NCBI GenBank assembly: GCA_945946665.1
Contig: CAMEWO010000006.1
Location: 27,958 to 91,957, forward strand
DNA: 64,000 nucleotides
Direction of reading: 5' to 3'
DNA from: an uncultured Eubacterium sp.
GTDB lineage: Bacteria > Bacillota > Clostridia > Lachnospirales > Lachnospiraceae
Shown: one piece after another, positions 9,211 to 35,445 of the stretch
How positions within the stretch are numbered: position 1 is the stretch's first letter
Layout of the letters: each line of letters starts with the position of its first letter
Made by a program: the position numbers and the translations under genes
Notes under the pieces: generated by a model
What the model saw: only the letters and a program-made list of their open reading frames with translations
Databases searched by the model: none
Told to the model about the DNA's origin: nothing

Positions 9211-9239
9211 ATTGTAGCATATTTTTTAGTAGTAATCAA
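9211..9239 (-). promoter_or_regulatory. Sigma-A-type promoter for tRNA-Leu
   Basis: Minus TTGATT-17 nt-TACAAT upstream of the tRNA 5' end. Confidence 0.65.
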
Positions 9240-10189
9240 GCCTTATCGGACTCCTCATCAAAGTTTATTCTCTCCTCCTCAATAACAAGAGGTCTGTTCA
9301 TAACTCTCTGATTGATACTTATTATATATTCACCCATAAGTCCGATAAAGAACAGCTGAAGGGAACCGAGAAATGATACAAGAAGAATAAGTGGAACCAT
9401 ACCTGCTGTAAATCTGTCCCAGTAAATCAGCTTTAATACAAGATAAACTATTGCCACAACAATACTTATTCCGCCACATATTACTCCCAGAAATGTCGCA
9501 ATCCTTAATCCCATCTTTGTATATGAGGTAAAGCTCAACATAGCAGCATCATAGAGAGTAAAGAAATTATTATGTGTCTTTCCTGCTCTTCTCTGTGCCT
9601 GTGTATATTCAATCTCAGTTTTCTTGAATCCCAGCTCTCCAACAATTCCCCTTATGAATGGAATCGGGTCCTTTAAATCCCTTAACACCTGGACAAAGGA
9701 CTTATCATATAACCCAAAGCCTGTAAAATGCTCAATCTGTTCAGCAGATGACATTTTTTTGATAATCTTGTAGTAGCATGATCTCAGGAAATACATTATC
9801 TTATTTTCCTTGCTGGAAGTCTTTACGGCGCACACTATCTTGTAGCCCTTCTCCCACTCAGCCACCAGTCGTGGAATTACGTCAATAGGATCCTGGAAAT
9901 CAGCGCATACCGGAATAGTACAGTCACCATCAGTCTGAAGTATTCCGTAATAAGGCGAGTTAAACTGGCCAAAGTTCTTGGCATTGAATATTGCCTTGAT
10001 TTTCCTGTTTTCCTTGCAGAGTTGTCTTAACTTCACTCTTGTTGCATCTGTCGAGTCATTATCAATGAACAGAATATCATAATCATACTGAGGGAGATCC
10101 TTTTCAAACATCTGTATTAATGCCTGGCTAAGGGGCACAACATTATCTTCCTCGTTGTAACATGGCACCATAATACTTATCTTTTTCAT
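9236..10189 (-). CDS. Family 2 glycosyltransferase with two C-terminal TM helices (GtrB / Und-P glycosyltransferase-like)
   Basis: MKKISIMVPCYNEEDNVVPLSQAL, DADF-type region, IEHFTGFGLYDKSFVQVLR, C-terminal TM pair and GEYIISINQRVMNRPLVI; start overlaps upstream stop (TAATG). Confidence 0.9.
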   Translation of the reverse strand: MKKISIMVPCYNEEDNVVPLSQALIQMFEKDLPQYDYDILFIDNDSTDATRVKLRQLCKENRKIKAIFNAKNFGQFNSPYYGILQTDGDCTIPVCADFQDPIDVIPRLVAEWEKGYKIVCAVKTSSKENKIMYFLRSCYYKIIKKMSSAEQIEHFTGFGLYDKSFVQVLRDLKDPIPFIRGIVGELGFKKTEIEYTQAQRRAGKTHNNFFTLYDAAMLSFTSYTKMGLRIATFLGVICGGISIVVAIVYLVLKLIYWDRFTAGMVPLILLVSFLGSLQLFFIGLMGEYIISINQRVMNRPLVIEEERINFDEESDKA

Positions 10190-11154
10190 TACTCTACCTG
10201 ACCTTTCGTCAACTGATTCTTCCACCAGGAAACAGTTTCGGCTATTCCCTGCTCAAATGTATAGGAAGGCTGAAATCCTGTATCTCTCACCAAATCCTCG
10301 ATATCAGCACACAGGTACATAACCTGCCTGTCTGAATAAGGAACCTCACCAAACCCAACCGGGAGGCTTTTATCAACAGTATCTCTAATAACAGCAATGT
10401 AATCTTTAAGAGGTCTTGCCTGTCCACTTCCCAGACAGTAAACCTGACCATCTCTTCCCTTTTCTGACAGTGCAAGCAAAGCCTTTGCTGCATCCTTTGA
10501 ATACAGATAATCCCACATCTGCTCGCCCTTGGTGCAGGAAGGCTTCTCACCATTCAGAAGTTTAATGATGGTAGAGGAAACCATGGTATTTTCCCCGTCA
10601 TAAGGACCATATACACTTAATATACGGACCCATATATGCTTTATGCCCTTCTCCCTGCATGCGATTCTGGTCATCTGTCCTGCACACAGCTTGGCTATTC
10701 CATATCCATTTTCAGGAAATGCAGGAACTCCTGCATTAAGCTTCCCTTCAAATCTTCCATACTCTGCCTGGGATCCAGCCCCTACAAATGTAGAGCACCC
10801 CAAAGCTTGGGCGGCTTCCACTGCATCCAGCGCATATCGCACATTTTGATTCTGTCCATACATATTGTTACGGCTGTTTCCAAATGTGCCATCCCATCCA
10901 AAATGATAGAATGTATCAGCCCCTTCTGGAATCAGTTCAGGCAGTCTGTTAAGTTCCTTAAGGTCACAGTACACAACCTTAACATTATCTGATTCCTGTA
11001 TTCTCCCGGCTCTCTTAGAACCGGGTCTTACCACTGCCACCACCTGTACCCCGTTGTGGGACAGACACTGTATTAATGCTGTTCCAATAGCTCCAGTTGG
11101 CCCTGTTATAACTGCTCTTTTCAATTTATATTCTCCATTATATATGACTTTCAT
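10189..11154 (-). CDS. NAD-dependent epimerase/dehydratase (SDR); candidate reductase of the branched-sugar pathway
   Basis: KRAVITGPTGAIGTALIQCL Rossmann motif; extended SDR Y-x3-K-like motif YGIAKLCAGQM. Confidence 0.85.
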   Translation of the reverse strand: MKVIYNGEYKLKRAVITGPTGAIGTALIQCLSHNGVQVVAVVRPGSKRAGRIQESDNVKVVYCDLKELNRLPELIPEGADTFYHFGWDGTFGNSRNNMYGQNQNVRYALDAVEAAQALGCSTFVGAGSQAEYGRFEGKLNAGVPAFPENGYGIAKLCAGQMTRIACREKGIKHIWVRILSVYGPYDGENTMVSSTIIKLLNGEKPSCTKGEQMWDYLYSKDAAKALLALSEKGRDGQVYCLGSGQARPLKDYIAVIRDTVDKSLPVGFGEVPYSDRQVMYLCADIEDLVRDTGFQPSYTFEQGIAETVSWWKNQLTKGQVE

Positions 11155-13031
11155 TACGAAAGAGGCTTGATTATCATATTGCTGTAGAATTCATCCCTGT
11201 CCAGGAATGGTGCAAGGTCTTCAAGAGGAGGTGACACAAGAGTTCCATCTGGAAGTCTCTTGGTGGATGATTTAGGCTCAAAATTCTGTGTTGTAGATAC
11301 AAATATCTCACATACAGCAGGACCATCCTCTGCCAGAGTATCCTCAATTGCCTTTTCCAGCTTATCATTACTGTCTGCACTGTAGTATGGATATCCGTAA
11401 GCAGCCACAATCTTTCCCATATCAGGAAAGCTTAAATCACCGCTTTCAGGACCTATACCCACAAACTGCTTATTGAACAGATTTGTCTGTGTCTGTCTTA
11501 TAGAATGATATCCCTGGTTATTTATAATAAATATCTTGATTGGCATCTTGTGGTGAATAATGGTCTGAAGCTCCTGTATATTCATCTGGATACTTCCGTC
11601 ACCTGTTACAAGAATAATATCCTTGACTTTCTTTCCAAGAGACCTGCCATTTAATGCTTCATCTCCAAACTCAGCCACAGCAGCTCCGATTGCTGCAGGA
11701 AGGTCATATCCCATAGAAGCAATAGCAGAATTAATGATGAATCTCTGGTCTTTCTTAATCTCATAGCCATGGCTTCCCACGACACAGGCAGAACCGTTAC
11801 CTACAACAGTTACCTGGCCTTCGTCAAGCCTTCTGCTTAATTCTTTAATAAATGCATATACATTGGCATGGTCCTTGTCTTCATAATGCTTAGGAAGAAC
11901 AACAGGATATTTTTCCTTCCAGTTCTGGCATGTCTTAACCCATTCTTCATTCTGGAATAACTTACCACCTGCAAGCTGACCTGATTTTTCCATACCACCA
12001 AGAACCTTCTCCATCTTTGAGAGAAGTTCCTTTGCATCTCCCCATACAGGCATATCAACATGAAGTGTAGGCTTCTTTAACTCGGCCTCATCTACATCAT
12101 TCATAATAACATAAGCTTCTCTCGCCCATGTCTTCCAGTTATATCCAACCTGACGGATGCTTAATCTGTTACCAATTGAAAGCACCAGATCCGAATTCTG
12201 TACTGCGAAATTACCGGCTCTGTCTCCCATTATTCCGCCACGTCCCACATAATATGGGTGTTCATCATATATGGCATCAATGCTGTCCCAGCAGGTTGCC
12301 ACAGGAATTCCCAACAGCTCAACAACCCTTTTAAAGCTGTCGTATCCTCCTGATATTCTTATTCCATTGCCGGCATAGAGCACCGGACGCTTCGCATTCT
12401 TAATCTTGTCTATAATAGCTTCAACAGTTGAATCTTCAATGTGAGGCGGAAGATTATTTTCATATTCCTCAGGATCAAAACCTCTTAACTCCTCTGTCTC
12501 TACTGTTCCTCCCTGTACATTAAGAGGAATATCAAGCCAGCATGGACCCGGTCTTCCTGTTGTAGCAATGTACAACGCCTTTTCAAGACAATATCTGATA
12601 TCATTTGGATTAATTACCATCTGGGCGTATTTAGTCATTGCCTGGGCAGATTTAGTAATATCAAATTCCTGGTCTCCCATGGCTCTTAAGTTAAGTCCGG
12701 TGCTTCTGGCAGTTGTATCGTATCTGACCTGTCCTGATATTACAAGCATAGGGATAGAATCAAGATATCCTCCTACAACTCCTGTCATGGCATTAGTTCC
12801 ACCAGGGCCTGTAGTCACACATAAAAGCGCTATCTTATTATGAATTCTTGCATAGCTTTCCGCAGCAATGGCACATGCCTGCTCATGATGGTTATACACA
12901 CATGTAAGACCCTTCTGGTGTCCAAAACTGTCATTAAGATGCATGGCTCCACCACCGGTTACCGTAAATGCATGGGTTATCCCATAATCCACCAGAAACT
13001 GTGCAATATAGTCAGATACCTTTACCTTCAT
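11154..13031 (-). CDS. Thiamine pyrophosphate-dependent enzyme, acetolactate synthase-like (YerE-type candidate)
   Basis: MKVKVSDYIAQFLVDYGITHAFTVTGGGAMHL; VTGDGSIQMNIQELQTIIHHKMPIKIFIINNQGYHSI TPP-binding motif. Confidence 0.9.
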   Translation of the reverse strand: MKVKVSDYIAQFLVDYGITHAFTVTGGGAMHLNDSFGHQKGLTCVYNHHEQACAIAAESYARIHNKIALLCVTTGPGGTNAMTGVVGGYLDSIPMLVISGQVRYDTTARSTGLNLRAMGDQEFDITKSAQAMTKYAQMVINPNDIRYCLEKALYIATTGRPGPCWLDIPLNVQGGTVETEELRGFDPEEYENNLPPHIEDSTVEAIIDKIKNAKRPVLYAGNGIRISGGYDSFKRVVELLGIPVATCWDSIDAIYDEHPYYVGRGGIMGDRAGNFAVQNSDLVLSIGNRLSIRQVGYNWKTWAREAYVIMNDVDEAELKKPTLHVDMPVWGDAKELLSKMEKVLGGMEKSGQLAGGKLFQNEEWVKTCQNWKEKYPVVLPKHYEDKDHANVYAFIKELSRRLDEGQVTVVGNGSACVVGSHGYEIKKDQRFIINSAIASMGYDLPAAIGAAVAEFGDEALNGRSLGKKVKDIILVTGDGSIQMNIQELQTIIHHKMPIKIFIINNQGYHSIRQTQTNLFNKQFVGIGPESGDLSFPDMGKIVAAYGYPYYSADSNDKLEKAIEDTLAEDGPAVCEIFVSTTQNFEPKSSTKRLPDGTLVSPPLEDLAPFLDRDEFYSNMIIKPLS

Positions 13032-13073
13032 AAAACACCTCACCTCTGCGCTGTTTGAAACGCCAAAATATAT

Positions 13074-13583
13074 TTATTTCTTCCCAAAAGCCCACAGCTT
13101 GTTCATGAAGAAATTAATAGGAATGTTAATAATAAGATTAATTATTGGTGCTATCATCTTATTAATTCCCAGTACTGATACCCAAAGATACAGAAGCACG
13201 TTATTGAGAATCAGACCAGTAAATGCATATGAACAATATGTTTTAAACAATGCCGCCCATATGTTTCTCTTCTCACCATCATCAGCCTTGAATACATATT
13301 TGTTATTCCAGTAGAATGACCAGAGAACACTTAGCAGGAAAGAGACCACGTTAGCTATAAAATAATCAATTGAAGGAAACAGTCCTGCATTAATAAGAAT
13401 TCCAAGTGTTATGGCATACAGGGCATATGAAACGATTGTATTAGATACACCCACCAGACCAAATTGAAGAAACTCCTTAAATGTCTGTCTTGTCTTGTCT
13501 GTAAGGTCCTTTTTCAGAATTCTGAAAAGAAGTTCAACACATTTCATGTATATGTTTTCTATTGCTTTATATACTTTCTTCAT
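13074..13583 (-). CDS. GtrA-family membrane protein
   Basis: FKEFLQFGLVGVSNTIVSYALYAITLGILIN...ANVVSFLLSVLWSFYWNNKYVF. Confidence 0.9.
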   Translation of the reverse strand: MKKVYKAIENIYMKCVELLFRILKKDLTDKTRQTFKEFLQFGLVGVSNTIVSYALYAITLGILINAGLFPSIDYFIANVVSFLLSVLWSFYWNNKYVFKADDGEKRNIWAALFKTYCSYAFTGLILNNVLLYLWVSVLGINKMIAPIINLIINIPINFFMNKLWAFGKK

Positions 13584-13605
13584 TATGAATCTGCCTCACA
13601 TGTTT

Positions 13606-14943
13606 CTACTGATTAACTGCTTCTTTAATTGTTTTAGCCATAAAATCAATCATTTCATCAGTCATTCCAGGATATACACCAACCCAGAAAGTATCATTCA
13701 TGATTCTGTCAGTTACCTCAAGACCGCCATACACTCTGAAGCCTTCACCAGAAGCTCTCATTTCATCAAAGCATGGATGCTTGATAATATTTCCTGCAAA
13801 GAGATTTCTTGTCTGTACGCCGTGATCTTCTATATACTTAACAACCTGCTTTCTGTCAATTCCCTCTCTTACAGTGATTAGGAAACCAAACCAGCTAGGT
13901 CTTGAATTAGCACAGGCTTCTGGAAGAATGATTTTATCTGCAACTTCCTCTAATGCTGCCTTTAATCTGTCAAAATTATGTCTTCTTCTCTCAACGAATG
14001 ATGGGAACTTCTCAAGCTGGGCACAGCCTACAGCAGCCTGCATGTCTGTTGCCTTAAGGTTATATCCGAAATGAGAATATACATATTTATGGTCATATCC
14101 CAGTGGCAGCTCACCATACTGTCTGTCAAATCTGTGACCGCACATATTATCCACCCCTGATGGGCATACACAGTCACGGCCCCAGTCCCTGAAAGAACGG
14201 ATACATTTGTTAAGAAGAGGATTGTTAGTGTATACAGCACCGCCTTCACCCATAGTCATATGATGAGGTGGGTAGAAGCTGCTTGTTCCAATATCACCGA
14301 TTGTTCCGGTAAATTTCTCCTCGCCGTTGATTGTATACTTTGAGCCCAGGGCATCACAGTTGTCCTCCACAAGCCAGAGGTTGTGCTTATCACAGAATTC
14401 TTTAACTGCCCCAAGGTCAAATGGATTACCCAGGGTGTGGGCAATCATAACTGCCTTAGTCTTATCTGATAATGCTCCCTCCAGTTTAGTAACATCAATA
14501 TTGTACTGTGGAATTGTAACATCTACGAATACAGGCACTGCACCATACTGGATTGCAGGTGTGATTGTTGTAGGAAATCCTGCTGCCACAGTAATAATTT
14601 CGTCACCCCTCTTAATTCTTCTGTCACCTAACAGCGGAGAAGTAAGAGCCATGAAAGCATTAAGGTTGGCAGATGAACCTGAGTTAACTACCGATACATA
14701 CTTAACATTAAGATACTCACCCAGCTGTTTTTCAAACTGCTCAGTATATCTTCCTGATGTCAGCCAGAACTCCAGTGCTGAATCCACCAGATTCATCATC
14801 TCCTTACTGTCGTATACACGGCTTGCATAAGGGATTCTGTCTCCTTCCTTGTACTCCTTATTGTTGTGGTACTTCTTACAGTACTCATCAACCATTGAAA
14901 GTATCTCTTCTCTTGCCTGTGATTCATTCTTATTCTCGAACAT
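13606..14943 (-). CDS. rfbH: CDP-4-dehydro-6-deoxy-D-glucose 3-dehydratase (E1-type, PLP/Fe-S)
   Basis: 445 aa DegT/AHBA-like; YASRVYDSKEMMNLVDSALEFWLTSGRYTEQFEKQLGEYLNVKYVSVVNSGSSANLNA; SSFYPPHHMTMGEGGAVYTN (His in place of PLP-Lys, typical of RfbH/E1). Confidence 0.95.
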   Translation of the reverse strand: MFENKNESQAREEILSMVDEYCKKYHNNKEYKEGDRIPYASRVYDSKEMMNLVDSALEFWLTSGRYTEQFEKQLGEYLNVKYVSVVNSGSSANLNAFMALTSPLLGDRRIKRGDEIITVAAGFPTTITPAIQYGAVPVFVDVTIPQYNIDVTKLEGALSDKTKAVMIAHTLGNPFDLGAVKEFCDKHNLWLVEDNCDALGSKYTINGEEKFTGTIGDIGTSSFYPPHHMTMGEGGAVYTNNPLLNKCIRSFRDWGRDCVCPSGVDNMCGHRFDRQYGELPLGYDHKYVYSHFGYNLKATDMQAAVGCAQLEKFPSFVERRRHNFDRLKAALEEVADKIILPEACANSRPSWFGFLITVREGIDRKQVVKYIEDHGVQTRNLFAGNIIKHPCFDEMRASGEGFRVYGGLEVTDRIMNDTFWVGVYPGMTDEMIDFMAKTIKEAVNQ

Positions 14944-14952
14944 TGCTTCCTC

Positions 14953-16005
14953 CTAGTTAAAAAACTCCTGAATTTCTTTGTCCATACATGCCACAACATC
15001 TCCGCCTGCAGCATACACCTTTGACCATTCCACTGATTTCTCAATGGCAGTATCAAAATTCCATCTTGGCTTCCATCCAAATGTAGTCTTAAGCTTTGAA
15101 CAGTCAAGCTTAAGAAAATTAGCCTCATGAGGGCCTCCATCATAGCGGTCAATCCACTTAATACCCTCACCCCATTTGGCACAGAATGTATCTACAAGTT
15201 TTCCTGTAGTAACGCAGTCTGTCTCATCTGGTCCCACATTATAGAAACCTGCATATTTCTTATCTTCAAACTGTTTCTGGGCAATTATCAAATAGGCTGC
15301 CAGAGGCTCCAGCACATGCTGGTATGGTCTTGTGGAATGTGGATTTCTCACTATAATATCCTTTCCCTCAATAGCTGCCCTTACGCAGTCAGGAACAATT
15401 CTGTCATTGGCAAAATCACCGCCACCGATAACATTTCCTGCCCTGGCTGTAGAAACTGCCAGATCCATATTGTTAAAAAATGAATTGATATAGCTGTGGG
15501 TTACAAGTTCTGAACATGACTTGCTGTTGGAATATGGATCAAATCCATCCAGAGGCTCATTCTCCCTGTATCCCCATTCCCATTCATTATTCTTATATAC
15601 CTTGTCAGTTGTGACATTCAGGAAAGACTTAACGCATGGATTAAGCCTTACACACTCACATATATTCACAGTACCCATTACATTAGTTTCATAGGTATAT
15701 ACAGGATCTTTGTAAGAATCTCTCACAATTGGCTGTGCTGCCAGATGAAGTACAATCTCCGGCTGTGTCTGTTCAAATACCTTCTTAAGATGGTCAAGGT
15801 CTCTTATATCTCCGATAACAGAATTCATCCTGCTTTCCACATCAGCCATAGAAAACAGATTAGGCTCTGTTGGAGGGTTTAATGAATATCCCGTAACCTG
15901 CGCCCCAGCATTAATAAGAATTCTGCAAAGCCATGTTCCCTTGAATCCGGTATGTCCCGTAACAAGAACCTTCTTACCCTTATAAAAACTTAAATCCATT
16001 GCCAT
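14953..16005 (-). CDS. rfbG: CDP-glucose 4,6-dehydratase
   Basis: KKVLVTGHTGFKGTWLCRIL, LHLAAQPIVRDSYKDPVYTYETNVMGT, TDKVYKNNEWEWGYRENEPLDGFDPYSNSKSCSEL. Confidence 0.95.
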   Translation of the reverse strand: MAMDLSFYKGKKVLVTGHTGFKGTWLCRILINAGAQVTGYSLNPPTEPNLFSMADVESRMNSVIGDIRDLDHLKKVFEQTQPEIVLHLAAQPIVRDSYKDPVYTYETNVMGTVNICECVRLNPCVKSFLNVTTDKVYKNNEWEWGYRENEPLDGFDPYSNSKSCSELVTHSYINSFFNNMDLAVSTARAGNVIGGGDFANDRIVPDCVRAAIEGKDIIVRNPHSTRPYQHVLEPLAAYLIIAQKQFEDKKYAGFYNVGPDETDCVTTGKLVDTFCAKWGEGIKWIDRYDGGPHEANFLKLDCSKLKTTFGWKPRWNFDTAIEKSVEWSKVYAAGGDVVACMDKEIQEFFN

Positions 16006-16023
16006 TCTCCTTCACCGAAAAAC

Positions 16024-16800
16024 TTAATCCCAGTTCTTCCATGGAGCCTTGCCAGACTGCCACAGTTCCTCCAGCTTTTCCATCTCTCTCTTGGTATCCA
16101 TACACTGCCAGTAACCGTTGTGGTTAAATGCCTTTAACTGTCCAAGCTGGGCACATTTTTCAAGAGGCTCCTTCTCAAATACAGTTGAATCCCCGTCAAT
16201 AAAATCAAAAATCTCTGGTTCGAGAACCATGTAGCCGGCATTGATACGGCTTCCATCTGATGTCTGTTTTTCCCTGAAAGACTTAATTGTGTTATCACTG
16301 TCTATATCAAGCACACCAAATCTCTGTCCTACTGTAACCGCTGTCATAGTAGCAATCTTACCATGGGACTCATGGAACTTCACCAGGTCATTAATATTAA
16401 TATCACACACACCGTCACCATAGGTAAGCATAAATGTCTCATTACCTACATATGGCTGGATTCTCTTAACACGTCCGCCTGTCATTGTATTAAGTCCTGT
16501 ATCTACCAGTGTTACCTTCCATGGCTCTGAGAAATTGTTATGCACTGTCATCTGTCCGCCTTTGGTAAAGTCAAAGGTAACATCTGAATTATGAAGGGCA
16601 TAATCTGCAAACCACTCCTTAATCACATACTGCTTGTAGCCACAGCATATGATAAAATCGTTGTATCCATAGCTTGAATATTCCTTCATAATATGCCAGA
16701 GAATTGGCTTACCACCAATCTCAATCATTGGCTTTGGTTTTAAATGACTTTCCTCACTGATTCTTGTTCCGAATCCACCTGCTAAAATTACTGTTTTCAT
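16024..16800 (-). CDS. rfbF: Glucose-1-phosphate cytidylyltransferase
   Basis: MKTVILAGGFGTRISEESHLKPKPMIEIGGKPILWHIMKEYSSYGYNDFIICCGYK. Confidence 0.95.
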   Translation of the reverse strand: MKTVILAGGFGTRISEESHLKPKPMIEIGGKPILWHIMKEYSSYGYNDFIICCGYKQYVIKEWFADYALHNSDVTFDFTKGGQMTVHNNFSEPWKVTLVDTGLNTMTGGRVKRIQPYVGNETFMLTYGDGVCDININDLVKFHESHGKIATMTAVTVGQRFGVLDIDSDNTIKSFREKQTSDGSRINAGYMVLEPEIFDFIDGDSTVFEKEPLEKCAQLGQLKAFNHNGYWQCMDTKREMEKLEELWQSGKAPWKNWD

Positions 16801-16815
16801 GTTAATCTCCATTCT

Positions 16816-25738: not shown

Positions 25739-27073
25739 TTACTTCCTCTGACTCAGATATTTTTTAACTAAAAATGCACAAAAATACGGAAATGTATATA
25801 TATTGTTTACACATCCAACATTGCCATTTATTAATTTCAAGCCATATGTTATATCAGAGTATTTTTCACTGTTAATCAGTGTGGAAAGAGATTTGGATTT
25901 ACTATTGGTTGCTTTCACTTCAACGGGAACAAGATTGTTTGCTGTCCTTACGAAGAAATCCTCCTCAAGCGTAGAATCATCACGTTTGTAATAATACAAT
26001 CCACAGCCGCTTTTTACCAATGCCTCTCCTACAATATTTTCATACAATGCACCTTTATACACTCCAAGATTCTTATTTGCTCTCAGGTCAACCTGCGCTT
26101 CCTCATCCAGCATTGCTACAAGTAATCCCGTATCAGCAAAGTATAATTTGTATTTCGTCTCATCATAATTTCCTTTCAACGGTAGTTCGGGAAAATTAAG
26201 ACAATAGCACACATTAACAATTCCGGCATCCTTCAACCACTCAATACATCCTCTGTAATCCTTAAACCTTGCACCTGAAGCCACCTTACTTAACTGAAAC
26301 TTCTTATTATCCCTGGACAACTGAGGTGGAATCTGGTCAAAGACATTGAGTATTCTTGTCTGGTCCATTCCCTGTGCATACTTTCTTATATCTTCCCTGT
26401 AATCAGATATAAGCTGACGCTGTGTCATTAATGATCCTTCAAATGTTCCAGTAGCAATATAATTACGGACTACAGCAGGCATTCCCCCCAGGATGCAGTA
26501 ATCCATAAACAATCCATGGTAAACAGACAGCTCCAGTTCATTAAATGGCACAAGTTCATTCATATGGTCGAGCATCTCATTTACAGTTTCACAAGAATAC
26601 CCTTTTGCCCACAAGAACTCTTCAAAATCCATAGAATACATTTCATAATCTGTTTTATATCCAACACTATTACTCTCTATTCTCTTGTAATTAATTCCAA
26701 GGAGCGAGCCACTGCATATAACATCAAAACGTCCATCCTGAAAGAAAAACTTAAGTGATGTTGCAATTTCAGGAAATTCCTGCAGCTCATCAAAGAAAAT
26801 AAGAGTCTTCCCCTCTATGAAATGCTTAGATGGATCAATACGTGATATATTCCTGATTATGTCTTCCGCCTTATATCCATCACTGATTATCATTTTATAT
26901 TTTGGCTCTTCAACAAAATTTATCTCAATTACTTCATCATAATTACCCTTTGCAAAACGACGTATACTTTCTGTTTTTCCAACCTGTCTTGGTCCTTTTA
27001 CCACAAGAGGTTTTCTATCTGAGCTGGCTCCCCATTCTTTAAGATATTCATCAATTTTTCTCTTTAAATACAC
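25739..27073 (-). CDS. AAA ATPase with C-terminal DUF4143
   Basis: RKPLVVKGPRQVGKTESIRRFAKGNYDEVIEINF; LIFFDELQEFP; DUF4143-like YKLYFADTGLLVAML...NIVGEALVKSG..YYYKRDDS..EEDFFVRT...PVEVKATNSKSKSL. Confidence 0.9.
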   Translation of the reverse strand: MYLKRKIDEYLKEWGASSDRKPLVVKGPRQVGKTESIRRFAKGNYDEVIEINFVEEPKYKMIISDGYKAEDIIRNISRIDPSKHFIEGKTLIFFDELQEFPEIATSLKFFFQDGRFDVICSGSLLGINYKRIESNSVGYKTDYEMYSMDFEEFLWAKGYSCETVNEMLDHMNELVPFNELELSVYHGLFMDYCILGGMPAVVRNYIATGTFEGSLMTQRQLISDYREDIRKYAQGMDQTRILNVFDQIPPQLSRDNKKFQLSKVASGARFKDYRGCIEWLKDAGIVNVCYCLNFPELPLKGNYDETKYKLYFADTGLLVAMLDEEAQVDLRANKNLGVYKGALYENIVGEALVKSGCGLYYYKRDDSTLEEDFFVRTANNLVPVEVKATNSKSKSLSTLINSEKYSDITYGLKLINGNVGCVNNIYTFPYFCAFLVKKYLSQRK

Positions 27074-27269: not shown

Positions 27270-29330
27270 TCACCTCTCCAGCACATAATAATATATACAT
27301 CCCTGTATACTTGAGTATCTTCCCTGGTCAACAAGGTTGTAATATTCTAACGCTTCATTTATCGCAGCTTCATTATCAATGCCTTTATAGTAAGGGTTTA
27401 CTATCAGCAGAACCTTGTCGCTTGACTGCCTTGCAAACTGGTACAGATCCTCTGTAAGAATGTAATCACTCATTTCCACGGTATTCCCGTTAGTATAGAA
27501 CACTCTTCTCTTCCTTTTATCATCCCAGTTCAGACGGTACATATTACCATTAATAAAATTACCATTAGATGTTGGAATTATAATATTCCAGTCAGCTTCA
27601 TACCCTGTTTCCTTAAGAATATAGTCATAAGCCCTGTCAATATAGGTATACTGGGTGTTGTATATCAGGTAATCCCCGTAAAAAATATCCCCAACAGGTA
27701 TGTTCTTATCTCCAGTATAACACATTGTTACACTGTCTGTATCAAGATTAATAAAACTAAGCAGTGTAAAAGGGTCTATTGTTATAAAACACTGTACTGC
27801 AAGAAGCACTCCAACCGCAGCCTGCCCTGCTCTTAAAGCCACAATCTCTTTTCTTACCTTAACTACCTTTCTCACTCTCTCCACAACATATATGGCAATT
27901 AAATACAACAGAATATCTCCCACCACGTTATACCTTGCCATAGGTGCCGTAATATAGAGACATGAAAATGCCACAAATGCAACTAACGACGCTATAATAC
28001 AGTGTATATATTCATTTTTCTCTCTCTTCTTTTTATCCCTGATGCCATATACAATAAGGACTATGGCACACACCAGAATAATTACCACAATAAGCCAGTT
28101 AAAATTAAGAATGAACTGCTGCTTTAACTTAGTAACTATATGGGTGATATTAAATCCCAGACAATTAGTTCCGTTACTATTCCACTTGATTCCTGTATTT
28201 TCCTCTCCATACTGGGTCCACTGGGACACTCCGCCAATAGTCTTCATATACCATAACTGAAGAATAGTAGATACAAGAGTTGTATACAGACATCCATCTG
28301 TAGCAATTTTCTTTATTGCAGAAGTTCCTTTACCACTTGTTATATGCCTTATAAATGTTCCCACAACCAGACCAAATACTATCACAATTCCTGTCTCTTT
28401 CGTCTGGAAACACATAAGGCTGGCTACACCTGCAATTAATGGCTTATTATATATAAATCCATACAATGCCATCATGAAGAAACATCCAAGAGCATAATCC
28501 GGGTTAAAATATGTGGCAGTACTGTAGAACAGTGGTGCCAGAGATATAATAAATGTATAGATAGCAGCATTTTTTTCAGATGTGCCCTTAACTATCCTTA
28601 ATATAATCTTGTAGATACACCACAATGCCACAGCTGTAACACAATAACTGGTTAATGACACGCCAATTATTCTTTCAGGAAAAAGCAGCTCCCCAGCAAG
28701 ATATATAAGAGAAAACATCATGGTTGGATGTTTACATATACAGAACAATCCTCTGTATTCTTCAAAATCAGTGAAAGTAAACTGCTGCACAGCCTGGCTG
28801 AATCTCCAGTAGTACTCTCCCGAATCCCATCTCTGCATCATTTCAATAAAAGGAAATCTCATGGCAATTGCAACACCAATAACAAGAATAATGAATTTTT
28901 CCCTGTTAAACCACTGCCCCATGACGGTGTCACCATTAATGAAGGAAATACATCCACATATAATAAAATACAATGCAAAAGGGAGAACAGAAAATACCCA
29001 GTAAACCAGGTCTCCAGAAAAATCAATGGTCTTGACAGAAGAAAAAATAATTGCAACTGACAGCGCAACCGGCTGCACTGATAAGAACATAAGCTGACTG
29101 TTAAACTTCCCAATCAGATTCTTGCTTAGAGCATATACCACACCAAACACCGCATATACAACCACTACAATCAGCAGCTGCAACACCTTGCCATGCTGGA
29201 TATAATACCCCCATGTCATAGCTCCCCACAGAGCCATGGCAAGAAGCATCCCAAATATATATTCTAATTTTATTAAGAGTTCTTTTTTTTCGTTATATTC
29301 TTTGCTATTCACTGCCTGCACCTTTCTCAT
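27270..29330 (-). CDS. Polytopic GT-C-type glycosyltransferase-like membrane protein
   Basis: 686 aa, many TM helices; MRFPFIEMMQRWDSGEYYWRFSQAV; TATYFNPDYALGCFFMMALYGF. Confidence 0.75.
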   Translation of the reverse strand: MRKVQAVNSKEYNEKKELLIKLEYIFGMLLAMALWGAMTWGYYIQHGKVLQLLIVVVVYAVFGVVYALSKNLIGKFNSQLMFLSVQPVALSVAIIFSSVKTIDFSGDLVYWVFSVLPFALYFIICGCISFINGDTVMGQWFNREKFIILVIGVAIAMRFPFIEMMQRWDSGEYYWRFSQAVQQFTFTDFEEYRGLFCICKHPTMMFSLIYLAGELLFPERIIGVSLTSYCVTAVALWCIYKIILRIVKGTSEKNAAIYTFIISLAPLFYSTATYFNPDYALGCFFMMALYGFIYNKPLIAGVASLMCFQTKETGIVIVFGLVVGTFIRHITSGKGTSAIKKIATDGCLYTTLVSTILQLWYMKTIGGVSQWTQYGEENTGIKWNSNGTNCLGFNITHIVTKLKQQFILNFNWLIVVIILVCAIVLIVYGIRDKKKREKNEYIHCIIASLVAFVAFSCLYITAPMARYNVVGDILLYLIAIYVVERVRKVVKVRKEIVALRAGQAAVGVLLAVQCFITIDPFTLLSFINLDTDSVTMCYTGDKNIPVGDIFYGDYLIYNTQYTYIDRAYDYILKETGYEADWNIIIPTSNGNFINGNMYRLNWDDKRKRRVFYTNGNTVEMSDYILTEDLYQFARQSSDKVLLIVNPYYKGIDNEAAINEALEYYNLVDQGRYSSIQGCIYYYVLER

Positions 29331-29440: not shown

Positions 29441-29479
29441 AAAAAGACCATCTACAGCCATTTACGACTGTGATGGTCT
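29441..29479 (-). terminator. Rho-independent terminator downstream of the flippase gene
   Basis: Minus AGACCATCACAG-...-CTGTAGATGGTCT then TTTTT. Confidence 0.75.
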
Positions 29480-29581
29480 ACTAGTTACTACTATTTATTA
29501 TTCATCAGAATATCATTATTATTCAGATATTATGATGTGTGTGCCAAATCATTGCCTATGCCAGATTAATTCTTTGACGGA

Positions 29582-30784
29582 TTAATTCTTTGGCAGCTTC
29601 ATCTTTCCCACTACCATTACTGCCACAATCTTAATCAGATTAACAATGAGAAGTGCCCATGCCATTCCCCATATTTTCCATGCAAATGTCATGGGAACTG
29701 CCAGAACAACGAACATTATCATATACACAATATTAATATACAGCTGGTACTTTTCATCAGTAAATCTTAAAAGCACAACAGTAAGTGTATTAGAAAGGAA
29801 ATAGTATATCTGGCCTGCATTGGCAACCCACAGATAAGGCTTTACATCACTATATATATCAGGGTACATAATCATTACAAATACCATGGATACCCCGACA
29901 CAAAGTACATTAAGCACTGCGCCTCCTGCAATAACAGCCATACACAGCTTAAGGAATGTGCTGCCCTTAAGCTTTCCATTAAATCTTGCCAGATGCCCCA
30001 TGATAACCCCGTTAAGAGGCATGGAAACCAGTGATATCATCTTTCCAACCAGCGTTGCGGCATAGAATATGGTAACAGCCACTCCTCCTGCAATTGCCTG
30101 AAGCATAAGCCTGTCAGCATTGAGAATTACGGCTGCAATAAGCTCGGTAAGAGACAATATTATAACAGACTTCATGTTATCCTTGTAATAATCGGACTTC
30201 CTAAATACAGGTTTGCGGTACAGAGAGCCCTTAATTACAACAAATCCTACTGCCAGAGCCTCACCAATAAGCATAGCTGCAATCCATGAGTGAGTAACAG
30301 GAAAAAGAATTATTCCAACAACATACCCCACAGATACGAGAATATAATATAACAGAAAGCCTCTGTAATTAACATTAAGCCTGAATTCTACATCACTGTA
30401 ATATCTAAGAACAGTTACAACCATAAGTGCAAAAAATCCCAGAAACATCAGGACAGAACCATCTCCCAGCCACATAAGGCCTGCCAGGGACACTGGTATG
30501 CAAAGAACTGCAATATACAGAAGAAATCTGTTATAATCCCCATTACAGTCAATGTTCTTAGTCCTTGCCACCATTCTGGAATAATTAGCTGCCACACCGA
30601 ATGTAGAACCCATAATAGACACGATTGACAGAAGAGTTAACACCTGTCCGAATCTGTCTGTACCCAGCTGCCTCTGAAAGCATGGATACAGAAGGAGCTG
30701 GATAACGCCATTCATGGCAATAAGCCCCAGCATACTGTCTATCAGATCTCTTGAAACGCCTTTAACCTTATCTAATACCTTCAC
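29582..30784 (-). CDS. Wzx-like polysaccharide/oligosaccharide flippase (MOP superfamily)
   Basis: 400 aa multi-TM; IQLLLYPCFQRQLGTDRFGQVLTLLSIVSIMGSTFGVAANYSR; NADRLMLQAIAGGVAVTIFYAATLVGKMI. Confidence 0.8.
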   Translation of the reverse strand: MKVLDKVKGVSRDLIDSMLGLIAMNGVIQLLLYPCFQRQLGTDRFGQVLTLLSIVSIMGSTFGVAANYSRMVARTKNIDCNGDYNRFLLYIAVLCIPVSLAGLMWLGDGSVLMFLGFFALMVVTVLRYYSDVEFRLNVNYRGFLLYYILVSVGYVVGIILFPVTHSWIAAMLIGEALAVGFVVIKGSLYRKPVFRKSDYYKDNMKSVIILSLTELIAAVILNADRLMLQAIAGGVAVTIFYAATLVGKMISLVSMPLNGVIMGHLARFNGKLKGSTFLKLCMAVIAGGAVLNVLCVGVSMVFVMIMYPDIYSDVKPYLWVANAGQIYYFLSNTLTVVLLRFTDEKYQLYINIVYMIMFVVLAVPMTFAWKIWGMAWALLIVNLIKIVAVMVVGKMKLPKN

Positions 30785-30796
30785 ATGTTCTCCTAT

Positions 30797-31615
30797 CTAT
30801 ACAATCACGTGGTCGGGAACCTGCTTCTCAACTGGTGGAAGCTGCATGTAATCACCATACTGTGCCTTTAACACCTCATCAAAGCATGCAGGCGCATCAA
30901 AGTAATCGTCATCCACCTGAACAGATACAATATCCTTAAACCATTCTTTCTTAAGCGTAATTCCAATCAGGTTAATTGGATAATTGCTGTAGAAATATCT
31001 GCCTGTACTGCCCTTTACAGAGCGGCTTAACTTCTCATATCTTCTGTACAGATAATTCAGGCTGAACAGCTTTCCCACTGCGGCAAGCACAGCTACAACA
31101 ACCTTTGAAATGCCTGAATACTCAGAGAGGTCAATGCTGTCCCTGTGTCCCATTGCCATTCCATATACGAATGTAAGTCTTGTCTTTAATATCTTTTGTT
31201 TGAAATCGCTGTCATATGCATTATCCAGAATGAAGAAATCAATGCACATCCTGTTCCTGCATTTATCAAGACACTTGCTTATACATTTGTCAAATGTCTT
31301 TACAGGAACTTCATCTCTTACATTCACAAGTCTTGTAGTGTAATCAAGGAATCCGCCAGGAGTAAGCTCCTTGCTTGTCACAAGCACGAAATCCTCACCC
31401 CACTCCTCTGCTGGTACTGCAAGAATCTTCTCATATTCTTCCCTGGTAAATGCCACATCTATATCATCATCCCATGGAACGAATGACTTGTGTCTTACAG
31501 CCCCGATAAGAGCACCTGAATCATAATAATACTTAATTCCATATTTATGGCACACCTCATGAAGCTTTCTCATGGTATATCTGTTAGCTTCCTGTGCCTT
31601 CTTTAAATTATCCAT
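30797..31615 (-). CDS. LicD-family phosphotransferase
   Basis: YGIKYYYDSGALIGAVRHKSFVPWDDDIDVAFTREEYEKIL. Confidence 0.95.
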   Translation of the reverse strand: MDNLKKAQEANRYTMRKLHEVCHKYGIKYYYDSGALIGAVRHKSFVPWDDDIDVAFTREEYEKILAVPAEEWGEDFVLVTSKELTPGGFLDYTTRLVNVRDEVPVKTFDKCISKCLDKCRNRMCIDFFILDNAYDSDFKQKILKTRLTFVYGMAMGHRDSIDLSEYSGISKVVVAVLAAVGKLFSLNYLYRRYEKLSRSVKGSTGRYFYSNYPINLIGITLKKEWFKDIVSVQVDDDYFDAPACFDEVLKAQYGDYMQLPPVEKQVPDHVIV

Positions 31616-31639
31616 TATCCTTTGTTACCCCACTAAACC

Positions 31640-33466
31640 TTATCTTACTTCAACTTCCTTTAATGCTGCTACAAGAGCGTCATTGTCCTTCTCGTCTCTT
31701 ACTGCAAGCCTTATATACTGTTTTCCGTCACCCACCTTCTTGGTAAGGTCTTTAATAAGTATGTCCTTTTTTAACAATATACAGCACAACTCATGACCTG
31801 TAATTCCAGAAAGCTCACACATAACATAATTTGCCTGGGATGGGAACACCTTAATATATGGAATACTCTCAAGTCCCTGTACAAGCTTTGCTCTTGCAGC
31901 TCTTAACTTAACTAAAGAAGCTGCATAATCCTTATTGTACTTCTCCATAATCTGCATGTAGAATTCACCAAATGAATTGATATTCCATATGGCAACATCC
32001 TTCTTCATGTCAGCAATAACATCTGTATTACTGCTTGCCAGAATACCAAGTCTCACACCAGGCACACCGTATGATTTAGATATACTCTTAACCACATACA
32101 GTTCACTGTAAGATTCTAATATGTTATCATCCAGTAAAGACAGATCCTTAACGGCTGCTCCTTCAGGAATGTCAGCAAAATCCACAAAGCTTTCATCAAT
32201 AACAAGTTTTATTCCCTTGCTCTTGCACCAGTCAATTAATTTCTTAAGTCCATCCAATGGAATATAATTACCACTTGGATTATCAGGATTAATAAGAATC
32301 AGATTATCAACAGCATTATCGGTATAGAACTTTATAATATCATCTGCATCGTATCTGAAGCCTTCCTTTTCAGGTCTGTATCCCACAATCATTGACTTAT
32401 CATATCTGTTAGGATACTCCTCGAATGTTGGATATATACATCCAAGCTTACCTGTGAAATGTTCCATCAGAGATTTAATAAGCTCAGCTGCACCATTTCC
32501 AACAAGAACATATTCCTGTCTTATTCCGAAATTATTGGCTGCAAGAAGAGAATTAACCTCCATACCAGATGGATACTGGGCAATCAGTGTCTCGAAATTA
32601 GACTTTATCTCCTCGTTAAGCTTTTCTGGTGGATAATATGGATTAACAAGATAACAGAAATCCTTTAATCCCGGATATCTCCAGAATCCACCATATCTTC
32701 TGTTAATCTTGTCCAGCTTATCATCATCACTGTCTGCAAACAGAGACTCAGCAATATTAAGATCCTGTATATTATCTATCTCATACCACTTCTGGCCTGT
32801 CAGTCTCTTTGCACGGATTTCCTTAGTCTCAAGCATGGCAATAAGCTTAATTACTGACTCATAATACTCATTCTCGCCCATTGCCTTCTCATAGGCAGAC
32901 AGAAATGGCACGTATGTATTAGCACTGAAATGACTGCTGAACTTATATATATTAACTGTCTTATAATACTTTTCCTTCTCCGCAAACTTAAGATGCTTTC
33001 CAGGAATAAAATCAACGATGCAGTCGTCATCGTCAAGCTCCATACATGTTCCATCCATCCAGCTCTCAAACTTATCCACCAGAGCCAGAGTCTCTCTCTT
33101 ATCATCAAGCAGAACATCAATAAGACTTTCCTCGAATACCAGATCTGATTCAAGAAGAAGTGTATCCTCTGCACACAGATAATCTTTAGCAAGTGCCAGA
33201 GAATAGATATTGTTAGTCTTATCATATATTGGATTGTTGATGAACACTACTGGTGTCTTCACATTCAGAGTTCCAATATAATCAATTAACTTCTGTCCTT
33301 CGTATCCAACTACTATTACAATTCTTGATAAGCCTTTCTTATCCAGAATACGGAGTGCTCTCTCAATCATTGTCACTCCATTAACCTTAACCATGCACTT
33401 GGTATTATTGTTTGTAAGAAACTTAAGCCTTTTCCCCATACCTGCAGCCAGAATTAAACCCTGCAT
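31640..33466 (-). CDS. Fusion: LicC-like nucleotidyltransferase + fold-type I PLP enzyme (HisC/CobD-like)
   Basis: ATG at 33466 with AGGAGAG SD; MQGLILAAGMGKRLKFLTNNNTKCMVKVNG; C-term VGNGAAELIKSL, INPDNPSGNYIPLDGL, VIDESFVDFAD, SISKSYGVPGVRLGILA. Confidence 0.9.
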   Translation of the reverse strand: MQGLILAAGMGKRLKFLTNNNTKCMVKVNGVTMIERALRILDKKGLSRIVIVVGYEGQKLIDYIGTLNVKTPVVFINNPIYDKTNNIYSLALAKDYLCAEDTLLLESDLVFEESLIDVLLDDKRETLALVDKFESWMDGTCMELDDDDCIVDFIPGKHLKFAEKEKYYKTVNIYKFSSHFSANTYVPFLSAYEKAMGENEYYESVIKLIAMLETKEIRAKRLTGQKWYEIDNIQDLNIAESLFADSDDDKLDKINRRYGGFWRYPGLKDFCYLVNPYYPPEKLNEEIKSNFETLIAQYPSGMEVNSLLAANNFGIRQEYVLVGNGAAELIKSLMEHFTGKLGCIYPTFEEYPNRYDKSMIVGYRPEKEGFRYDADDIIKFYTDNAVDNLILINPDNPSGNYIPLDGLKKLIDWCKSKGIKLVIDESFVDFADIPEGAAVKDLSLLDDNILESYSELYVVKSISKSYGVPGVRLGILASSNTDVIADMKKDVAIWNINSFGEFYMQIMEKYNKDYAASLVKLRAARAKLVQGLESIPYIKVFPSQANYVMCELSGITGHELCCILLKKDILIKDLTKKVGDGKQYIRLAVRDEKDNDALVAALKEVEVR

Positions 33467-33523
33467 ACCTTTGCTCTCCTTTGGTAATCTAATTATTTCA
33501 ACCCATAAATAAAATGTTACATG

Positions 33524-33567
33524 AAAAAAAGTGTGAAAAACCAACGGATTTCAAAAGCTTTTCACAC
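33524..33567 (-). terminator. Leader terminator-like hairpin just downstream of the promoter
   Basis: Minus GTGTGAAAA-N19-TTTTCACAC followed by TTTTTTT. Confidence 0.55.
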
Positions 33568-33578
33568 ATTTTTCACAT

Positions 33579-33607
33579 ATTTTACTCTTTATTTACTGTA
33601 CTGTCAA
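33579..33607 (-). promoter_or_regulatory. Sigma-A promoter for NTase-PLP/licD/flippase unit
   Basis: Minus TTGACA-17 nt-TAAAAT. Confidence 0.75.
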
Positions 33608-33639: not shown

Positions 33640-35445
33640 TTAAAACTTTATAAAATACAGATTTCCATTGTCACTGGATATAAAGCTGCCTCCTGCGGCA
33701 CCTTCCAGTCCAGTCTTTAATTCAGAAAATTCCTCATCCAGATATGCTCTTCTGTCCACATATATGCCGGCAAACCCCTGTTCCTTTAGATACTTTACCA
33801 TATCGCCATAACTCATCTCTGAAACATTCTTATTCCACTTATCCTCTTCTCTTCCCTTGATAGAGCCATAGCTCCATCTTAAGGTATCAGAGTGAACAAA
33901 TCCAACATACAGATGATAATCCCACATATCATTTACCGGACCAAATTCCGGATATTCATGGTACGGAAGCTGGTAAACCATAGCTCCTTCATCAAGCTGG
34001 TTCTCAATTCTTTCCACAAAATCCTTATCACTTGCATATTCTTCCCTGATAGTATCATAAGGAGGAGTTGCAAGATTCGGACATCCTTCCCATATACTGA
34101 ATATACATGCAAGGCCAAAAACGCCATAAACAATATATATAAGGATACCTTTAAGCACTTTCTTTGCATTGATAACTTCCACAAGCCTGTCCATGCATAA
34201 TGCCACCGCAAGAATTGCCACATATTCAATAAATATTGAAATTCTGTTGTATCCCCGAAGCAACGGACTTACAAAGAATGCAAACATTGCACCAATTCCG
34301 CCTATTGTTCCAAGCAGCACCATGGCAATATTAAGCTCTGACAGATACCCCAATCTTTTACTTAATATTCCATCCTTTCCATCTCTCCTTGCAAAAAGCC
34401 ACAATCCAAGAATTATGAATCCTATCATTCCAATTATTCCCAGATACGCTGTAGAATTCTCATTTACAAGAAAAGCTGCATCATTGTAATAATCAATATA
34501 CTTATCGTACAGTCCATGTCCATTAACAGGCATGAAAAGCTGGGCAATCTTTAAGCCATACAGCTCTGCCTGCTCAAATCCCGAACGGTCGATAGCAGCG
34601 CTGTTGCTTCCGTTAATCAGTGTGTATATTTTCCCTGGCAGAATACTTAACACCACGAAAAAGCATACCATAACAGTAGCAATTACGCCTCTTAACCCCT
34701 GCCGTATCTTACCTGTCTTTAACAGCTTGGATATGGCAGTTACAAGGAATATGAAGCATGTAAAGAATGGATAATAAGCTATACCATTATTTGCAATCAA
34801 AAATGTAAAAAACAGAACCACATAATTAATCTTTCTCTTGAAGAAATTCCTGTCTGGTACAAGAACATCATCTCTTTCATATATCCACAGGCATATAAGG
34901 ATTGAAAGAGGAACGAAGTAACATTCAGTAAGAACGATGTGTCCTATATTTCTGTACAGCATATATGGGGATACCGCAAATACAGATGAGGCAAGTGCAT
35001 TTGTCCAGCAGTTTATCTTCATATTTCTCATTACAAAATATGAGATAATCCCTGCCATAAAATATATAGACAAATACGTAAGATTCATAGCTGCCGCTGC
35101 ACTTCCGGTTATAACGGCGAATATTTTCATAATCAGCAGGCCCACATTATGCATCATGGATGATGTAAAATCATAGTACTGTACGGTAAAAGGTGCTCCC
35201 AGCCTGTCAGATGTCATGTTCCATCCCTGCTCTGTAAACTGCTTGGCGTTTACAAGAACCCCCATATCATCGCCACCGAAATATGACATTGGAATATTAA
35301 TATCCAGCTGGCTTAAATCCATGAGATGATAAAGCATTGCAAATATTATTACAATCATCAGTAAAAAGCTGCAATAATCCTGCCATTTATTTTTAAAATG
35401 CTCACCAAGCTTTGATTTCATATGTCTTATCCTTTCTTCATTCAT
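33640..35445 (-). CDS. Polytopic membrane protein, GT-C/YfhO-like
   Basis: 601 aa multi-TM; IPMSYFGGDDMGVLVNAKQFTEQGWNMTSDRLGAPFTVQYYDF. Confidence 0.75.
   Translation of the reverse strand: MNEERIRHMKSKLGEHFKNKWQDYCSFLLMIVIIFAMLYHLMDLSQLDINIPMSYFGGDDMGVLVNAKQFTEQGWNMTSDRLGAPFTVQYYDFTSSMMHNVGLLIMKIFAVITGSAAAAMNLTYLSIYFMAGIISYFVMRNMKINCWTNALASSVFAVSPYMLYRNIGHIVLTECYFVPLSILICLWIYERDDVLVPDRNFFKRKINYVVLFFTFLIANNGIAYYPFFTCFIFLVTAISKLLKTGKIRQGLRGVIATVMVCFFVVLSILPGKIYTLINGSNSAAIDRSGFEQAELYGLKIAQLFMPVNGHGLYDKYIDYYNDAAFLVNENSTAYLGIIGMIGFIILGLWLFARRDGKDGILSKRLGYLSELNIAMVLLGTIGGIGAMFAFFVSPLLRGYNRISIFIEYVAILAVALCMDRLVEVINAKKVLKGILIYIVYGVFGLACIFSIWEGCPNLATPPYDTIREEYASDKDFVERIENQLDEGAMVYQLPYHEYPEFGPVNDMWDYHLYVGFVHSDTLRWSYGSIKGREEDKWNKNVSEMSYGDMVKYLKEQGFAGIYVDRRAYLDEEFSELKTGLEGAAGGSFISSDNGNLYFIKF

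Follow-up and report, generated by a model that had tools for sequence, protein, structure and literature searches.

Genes and signals at the locus

The window analysed here is a stretch of 64,000 nucleotides from an uncultured Eubacterium sp. of the family Lachnospiraceae (assembly GCA_945946665.1, contig CAMEWO010000006.1). Its minus strand carries three closely packed genes, encoding a nucleotidyltransferase (NTase) fused to a pyridoxal phosphate (PLP) enzyme, a LicD-family phosphotransferase and a divergent Wzx-like flippase (Table 1), with gaps of 24 bp between the fusion and LicD and of 12 bp between LicD and the flippase. A sequence-only reading had described them as a self-contained operon, bounded by its own promoter and terminator, that would make a cytidine diphosphate (CDP)-linked amino-alcohol donor de novo. 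The three genes are indeed there, and Pfam, PDB and fold matches find both domains of the fusion. NTP_transf_3 covers aa 3–122 (E 2e-10) and Aminotran_1_2 aa 315–602 (E 1e-25), within a LicC/PntC-type NTase half (aa 1 to ~245) and a CobD/SMUL_1544-type PLP half (aa ~258–606). The AlphaFold model of the fusion has a predicted local distance difference test score (pLDDT) of 91.5, and its best full-length fold match is 6pd2, the PntC-AEPT fusion. Since full-length or near full-length homologues are found in 43 of 397 genomes of the family, and another in Fusobacterium (47% identity), the gene is, on this evidence, neither a chance open reading frame nor an assembly artefact. The ATG at 33466 suffices as its start, with the ribosome-binding-site-like AAAGGAGAG ahead of it, and the longer frame from a TTG at 33544 is unnecessary. 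In the LicD protein, the motif GALIGAVRH..PWDDDID aligns with FKRP. The flippase, searched as a single sequence, has no Pfam match above the cut-off (Polysacc_synt, E 0.057). When its family of 22 sequences is compared with a bona fide Polysacc_synt family profile to profile, a match of 97% probability (E 1e-10, 362 columns) is obtained; three other neighbour families reach 0.1–26%. Hydropathy predicts 11 transmembrane (TM) segments, and homologues of this protein adjoin LicD and/or a polyprenyl-phosphate glycosyltransferase.

The proposed boundaries hold only in part. The terminator downstream of the flippase stands, and the promoter match exists as well, but it runs into a hairpin that sits between it and the fusion gene, about 5 bases past the expected start site. 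This hairpin may terminate the upstream operon or act as an attenuator for the module. The role of the promoter match is doubtful because such a terminator-like hairpin lies directly downstream; a weaker second promoter-like match (33520–33492) is found downstream of the hairpin. The description of a self-contained operon has to be given up, as the hairpin parts promoter from gene and the conserved partners of the flippase are encoded at 9.2–16.8 kb of the window.

Table 1. Features discussed in the text, in window positions
Feature	Position	Strand	Basis or remark
Polyprenyl-phosphate glycosyltransferase (GtrB/PgfS/ArnC type)	9236..10225	-	PgfS E 4e-48 (below cut-off)
Short-chain dehydrogenase/reductase (SDR) sugar reductase/epimerase, putative YerF-like role	10189..11154	-	co-conserved with the flippase in relatives
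YerE-like thiamine diphosphate (ThDP) enzyme	11154..13043	-	TPP_enzyme domains; 8rph E 8e-122, far above acetolactate synthases
RfbH, 3-dehydrase of the CDP-3,6-dideoxyhexose pathway	13606..14943	-	NF011936, 723 bits, above cut-off
CDP-glucose 4,6-dehydratase	14953..16005	-	TIGR02622, 449 bits, above cut-off
Glucose-1-phosphate cytidylyltransferase	16024..16812	-	TIGR02623, 394 bits, above cut-off
GT87-family (GT-C) polytopic glycosyltransferase, 3' of the terminator	27270..29330	-	Pfam GT87 E 3e-7
Intrinsic terminator	29441..29479	-	hairpin -20.4 kcal/mol, z -6.2, then T5
Divergent MOP/Wzx-like flippase, 400 aa	29582..30784	-	profile-profile match, hydropathy, neighbour homologues
LicD-family phosphotransferase, 272 aa	30797..31615	-	Pfam LicD E 4e-25, whole profile covered
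NTase-PLP fusion gene, 608 aa	31640..33466	-	ATG start at 33466
Hairpin (33567-33531) followed by T7	33524..33567	-	12-bp stem, z -4.3
Sigma-70-like promoter match	33579..33607	-	TTGACA-17-TAAAAT, 11/12
Polytopic 601-aa protein, candidate GT-C-type glycosyltransferase	33640..35445	-	9 predicted TM segments

Relatives of the fused enzyme

Among proteins of solved structure, the PLP half is best matched by SMUL_1544 (6oux; profile 232 bits), with CobD at 136 bits and HisC at 118 or below. Ranked by sequence, the solved relatives are SMUL_1544, 3ftb, CobD and then the HisC enzymes, and the ranking by fold is similar. In a tree built from 20 fusions, reference proteins and 18 homologues from the family that stand alone, the fusions group with SMUL_1544 (support 100/99), apart from CobD and HisC, and the grouping persists at 85/84 in a tree with wider sampling. 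Residues common to the fusions and SMUL_1544 are Ser300 (Asp in CobD), Ser426 (Ala in CobD; Ala, Cys or Thr in others) and Glu501. The fusion cannot be named a CobD or a HisC, because it stays under both curated cut-offs: it scores 160 bits against 290.55 for TIGR01140 (CobD, its best NCBIfam model) and 139 against 276.55 for TIGR01141 (HisC). We take SMUL_1544 to be an L-serine-phosphate decarboxylase. It governs norcobamide synthesis (work cited in PMC8749415), and norcobamides have an ethanolamine linker (PMC6759758).

Residue conservation was counted over up to 123 fusion loci. The PLP lysine, Lys464, is present in 120 of 123. The phosphate-side Arg (position of R323 in CobD) is not kept; fusions have Lys572 here, in 119 of 120 readable sequences, and it is invariant across phyla among the fused proteins compared. 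Because of this replacement, the PLP half is, by its residues, related to the SMUL_1544-type decarboxylases without being a member of them. It shares its domain sequence, fold and many active-site residues with SMUL_1544 and CobD, but differs from them in its fusion to an NTase, in Lys572, in its glycan context and in the lack of CbiB. Three natural fusions (L068, 8984–10789; L156; L158) have replaced the PLP lysine (Asp, Gln, Glu). In these, the decarboxylase half is probably dead and the NTase half intact.

Among solved structures, the NTase half is closest to PntC of the PntC-AEPT fusion and to LicC, both matching over the whole domain (6pd1, E 6e-15, aa 2–239; 1jyk, E 2e-14, aa 2–243). In Tde-PntC, Glu104 and Glu196 hold the primary amine of 2-aminoethylphosphonate (AEP), and LicC has Asp at both positions (PMC6697681). 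The aligned residues of the fusions are of the PntC type, with Glu106 in 123 of 123 and Glu203 in 122 of 123, while the choline-kinase-fused NTases of relatives have Ser or Ala at position 106. Since the fusions carry the PntC-type Glu pair and not the Asp pair of LicC, the pocket points to a small primary amine as substrate in preference to choline.

The genome as a whole (2.45 Mb, 99.95% complete) is consistent with this picture in what it has and what it lacks. SerC is present. The genome gives no match to PF01633 (choline kinase), a model that is positive in relatives, and none to PF13714 (phosphoenolpyruvate (PEP) mutase), a search that is positive in 11 of 14 control genomes. CbiB was not found in the genome, which rules out a cobamide role for the fusion, and there is no choline or ethanolamine transporter within the three-gene unit. 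Four LicD genes were counted. Besides the fusion, no LicC-like NTase turned up in the genome, since the other NTP-transferase matches that were identified are IspD-like, glucose-1-phosphate cytidylyltransferase or mannose-1-phosphate/phosphomannose-type enzymes, and the few remaining proteins have no match to the fusion NTase at E 0.001. One candidate for a second LicC, G000:C43, was rejected, as by eye it reads as an IspD-like protein. A further connection comes from DUF1015. A gene of this family lies close to serC in this genome (L265, 10070–11302), and such genes overlap the fusion gene in another genome (L053 of G123, 10807–12033) and in Fusobacterium (L258, 10820–11866). This links the fusion to phosphoserine metabolism and suggests a phosphoserine-related role for DUF1015.

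The closest flippase homologue found (54% identical) is in genome G200, where the gene order is LicC-choline-kinase (LicC-LicA) fusion, permease, LicD, flippase. Because the two genomes keep the LicD-flippase pair and differ in the donor-supply genes, the NTase-PLP fusion looks, from gene order, like a replacement for choline salvage. The Lic-1 phosphocholine pathway (LicA, LicB, LicC, LicD) likewise has a LicC-like NTase and LicD for a surface glycan, but this genome lacks choline kinase and the unit lacks a transporter, a PLP domain takes the place of import and kinase, and the Asp pair of LicC is a pocket Glu pair. Fusions of a LicC-type NTase with choline kinase, ~600 aa long, occur at L223 (11781–13589, with an N-terminal helix-turn-helix domain) and at L050 of genome G234 (14470–16257), and the latter locus contains an NTase-PLP fusion as well.

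Proposed pathway and competing explanations

We consider it fairly probable that the fusion is a FrbH/PntC-type bifunctional enzyme that supplies a CDP-amino-alcohol to LicD, and that the decorated sugar is flipped and added to a glycan. The fusion would convert O-phospho-L-serine and cytidine triphosphate (CTP) to CDP-ethanolamine or to a very similar donor of a primary amino alcohol, with the PLP domain stripping the carboxylate and the NTase domain adding cytidine monophosphate (CMP). LicD would then move the phospho-amino-alcohol onto a sugar, most likely a branched 3,6-dideoxyhexose linked to undecaprenyl phosphate, the product of the genes at 9.2–16.8 kb. The flippase would bring this decorated monosaccharide to the other side of the membrane, where a GT-C enzyme would add it to the surface glycan. 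Sequence comparison shows what the domains are, which active-site residues are conserved, which characterised proteins come closest and which genes co-occur; the substrate, the sequence of the two reactions, the sugar that accepts the group and the finished glycan are deduced. The core of the sequence-only reading, a CDP-amino-alcohol donor made without import of choline or ethanolamine, is supported by the grouping with SMUL_1544, the PntC-type Glu residues, SerC, the lack of choline kinase, PEP mutase and CbiB, and the module swap in G200.

Several observations count against the scheme. In the trees, SMUL_1544 sits on a long branch. The position of Lys572 is Arg in SMUL_1544, CobD, HisC and the unfused rhizobial partners, that is, in all unfused proteins compared, and the substrate of the PLP domain may therefore differ from free phosphoserine. 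The assignment of the flippase rests on remote similarity, and its fold prediction has a pLDDT of 55. The sugar genes are ~15 kb away from the three-gene unit and have their own promoter and terminator. Finally, in the stretches fetched around 117 non-identical fusion loci, LicD is near the fusion in only 53, and in 35 there is neither LicD nor a TagF-like transferase nor an opine dehydrogenase.

For the acceptor, the company of the flippase is informative. Its usual partners in 20 other loci are a polyprenyl-phosphate glycosyltransferase, glucose-1-phosphate cytidylyltransferase, CDP-glucose dehydratase, RfbH, a YerE-like ThDP enzyme and an SDR protein. In L058 and L060, these partner genes form one gene run with LicD, the flippase and the fusion. 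The sugar genes and glycosyltransferase of the window (9236–16812) are orthologues of those in L058 and L060 (59–84% identical) and belong to an operon that has a perfect promoter match (20105–20077) and a terminator (9097–9063). YerE makes a branched 3,6-dideoxy sugar (PMC12247030). The glycosyltransferase has sll0501 (E 5e-45) and ArnC as PDB matches, and a 58–81% identical orthologue is present in most of the 22 flippase-homologue loci. Judged by these genes, the pathway is split and the three-gene unit makes up one of its halves, and the acceptor is likely a polyprenyl-linked branched dideoxyhexose. A GT-C partner is suggested by the 601-aa protein upstream of the unit, which in L224 and L225 has 38–40% identical homologues next to the flippase and the sugar genes, by the GT87 protein, a possible acceptor-side enzyme, and by YfhO in L060. 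The arrangement resembles three-component polyprenyl-phosphate glycosylation (PgfS/GtrB, flippase, YfhO/GT-C) in that a GT2 enzyme and the flippase are co-conserved in most flippase loci and YfhO occurs in L060; the difference is that a LicD step and a supply of CDP-amino-alcohol are added here. Between the glycan genes and the 24-kb groES region, the window also encodes a 444-aa protein (25739–27073) which by eye has the look of a DUF4143-type P-loop ATPase.

Within the proposed scheme the two reactions could also occur in the opposite order, with CMP-phosphoserine (CDP-serine) made first and decarboxylated to CDP-ethanolamine by the PLP domain afterwards. The precedent is FrbH of FR-900098 synthesis, which is said to be a cytidylyltransferase fused to a PLP decarboxylase. 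Its PLP half has been reported, in work attributed to Johannes in 2010, to decarboxylate the CMP conjugate, and FrbH reportedly makes CMP-3-aminopropylphosphonate, an isostere of CDP-ethanolamine. L-2-amino-4-phosphonobutyrate is the phosphonate (CH2-for-O) isostere of O-phosphoserine. It is this compound that FrbH cytidylylates (PMC6697681). The reaction proposed here would thus be a phosphate-ester version of FrbH chemistry, which makes cytidylylation first more likely, and Lys572 is seen only in NTase-fused proteins. Against this order, the amine site has two acidic residues as in PntC, whose substrate is already decarboxylated (PMC6697681), and no NTase is linked to SMUL_1544, which among characterised proteins is the closest relative. 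If the scheme as a whole is right, we regard this order as a serious possibility, though somewhat short of an even one. Compared by description, FrbH and the fusion have cytidylyltransferases of the same Pfam family and the same architecture of NTase and CobD-type PLP enzyme, but FrbH belongs to a phosphonate antibiotic pathway, while here PEP mutase is absent and LicD and a flippase lie in a surface-glycan region. In Priestia megaterium pBM700 (L262, 7992–11638), an NTase-PLP fusion is found with acetyltransferase and ATP-grasp genes and an extra DXR gene. This is a candidate fosmidomycin/FR-900098-type phosphonate cluster with self-resistance, its enzyme being probably FrbH-like; that enzyme and one from Rahnella form a separate branch in the wider tree.

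A different explanation takes the PLP domain for an aminotransferase, such as one that turns dihydroxyacetone phosphate into serinol phosphate in the manner of Cj1437, so that the donor would be of the CDP-serinol type. HisC-fold enzymes do both chemistries, and in the capsule pathway of Campylobacter jejuni a serine-phosphate decarboxylase (Cj1436) and the enzyme leading to serinol phosphate (Cj1437) work side by side (PMC12409886). The closest relatives of the fusion are decarboxylases, its family is separate from HisC and the pocket of the NTase is better suited to a small primary amine, and we think this explanation unlikely. The Campylobacter pathway is also a parallel, by description, to the decarboxylase scheme itself, in that serine phosphate is the de novo source of ethanolamine phosphate for a polysaccharide of the cell surface; in Campylobacter, however, an amide bond joins the amine, with no CDP donor or LicD (PMC12409886).

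It is rather improbable that threonine phosphate is the PLP substrate, giving CDP-aminopropanol. The best NCBIfam model is indeed CobD, an L-threonine-O-3-phosphate decarboxylase, with the score under the cut-off given above, but the tree and the diagnostic residues side with SMUL_1544, CbiB is missing, and phosphoserine is a common metabolite (SerC is present). A phosphonate route, with an AEP-type donor as in the Pnt pathway, is very improbable and was rejected for this genome, which has no PEP mutase. PntC-AEPT (Tde1415, PDB 6PD1/6PD2) has the same order of NTase then PLP enzyme, the amine-binding Glu pair and the best full-length fold match, and in rhizobia unfused NTase and PLP genes occur with PEP mutase. 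The PLP half of PntC-AEPT is, however, a class V AEP transaminase in a pathway that needs PEP mutase, and the PLP half here is of the CobD type. A sugar-1-phosphate-using NTase, with an ordinary sugar-pathway transaminase as its PLP partner, has membership of the NTP_transferase superfamily in its favour, but is just as improbable given that LicC and PntC are the best structural matches, that the Glu pair is of the PntC type and that a complete separate set of CDP-sugar genes lies in the window.

Distribution and neighbourhoods of the fusion

Besides the 43 genomes of the family, 3 of 399 genomes from across the phylum have a fusion. They are absent from both same-genus genomes sampled. Named carriers are mainly Butyrivibrio, Hungatella, Mogibacterium, Ruminococcus and unclassified Lachnospiraceae, and the Fusobacterium fusion has LicD in the same locus. 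The pairing with LicD is recurrent, but LicD is nearby in only about half of the 117 loci. A TagF-like transferase (PF04464 with YidC) lies in the fetched stretch of 22 of the 117, and an opine dehydrogenase (PF02317) in that of 32. Such raw co-occurrence is inflated by clustering in polysaccharide loci, and immediate adjacency is more telling: at most two genes away and on the same strand, there are 38 loci with LicD, 14 with the TagF-like protein and 30 with the opine dehydrogenase. LicD and TagF enzymes use CDP-linked donors, and opine dehydrogenases carry out a reductive condensation between a 2-oxo acid and an amine. Among solved structures, the neighbouring opine dehydrogenase comes closest to octopine dehydrogenase and N-(1-carboxyethyl)norvaline dehydrogenase. 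O-antigens are known to carry N-[(R)-1-carboxyethyl]ethanolamine phosphate as a substituent (PMC9630907). Together, the three types of neighbour fit an ethanolamine-type donor.

Phosphocholine and phosphoethanolamine tags of bacteria are usually held to need salvaged choline or phosphatidylethanolamine. Among open-licence papers, no description of the NTase-PLP fusion was found, and a de novo route to CDP-ethanolamine by one fused enzyme is apparently undescribed. If the proposal is true, LicD loci without salvage genes would be explained by a cassette with a fused de novo CDP-ethanolamine synthase, present in Fusobacterium, many anaerobes of gut and rumen and other bacteria, and zwitterionic glycans would be predicted where nobody has looked. 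The exchange of salvage and de novo modules beside an orthologous LicD-flippase pair would then be a natural experiment on a change of tag. The broader idea, which we put forward tentatively and at close to an even chance, is that of a widespread route in which one fused enzyme takes phosphoserine to CDP-ethanolamine and feeds interchangeable LicD, TagF-like and opine dehydrogenase modules, giving zwitterionic glycan tags without choline or ethanolamine from the host.

A number of individual neighbourhoods deserve mention. The opine dehydrogenase gene is directly beside the fusion in L047 (10896–11987) and about 30 other loci, which predicts an N-carboxyalkylated ethanolamine phosphate. In L044 (8772–9731) and three other loci, a gene of the ornithine-cyclodeaminase/mu-crystallin family (ketimine-reductase type) adjoins the fusion instead and is perhaps an alternative N-alkylation enzyme. 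A membrane protein in which YidC is fused to a CDP-glycerol glycerophosphotransferase is encoded next to the NTase-PLP fusion in L068 (10810–12723), L039 and L045, and a sulfatase-family membrane protein (lipoteichoic acid synthase/phosphoethanolamine transferase family) directly flanks it in L034 (2916–4883) and L052 (6942–8999). One copy of the fusion gene (L005/L034; G286 C56, 4935–6767) has an in-frame TAG within the full-length match. In Rahnella (L259), Bradyrhizobium (L261) and Rhizobium (L264), NTase and PLP genes, fused or separate, occur with a CDP-alcohol phosphatidyltransferase, and in the rhizobia additionally with PEP mutase; these are related clusters that look natural-product-like. 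In Gloeothece (L263, 7968–11430), the fusion, an S-adenosylmethionine (SAM) methyltransferase and LicD stand in a row, and a possible outcome is de novo phosphocholine by methylation of the ethanolamine donor.

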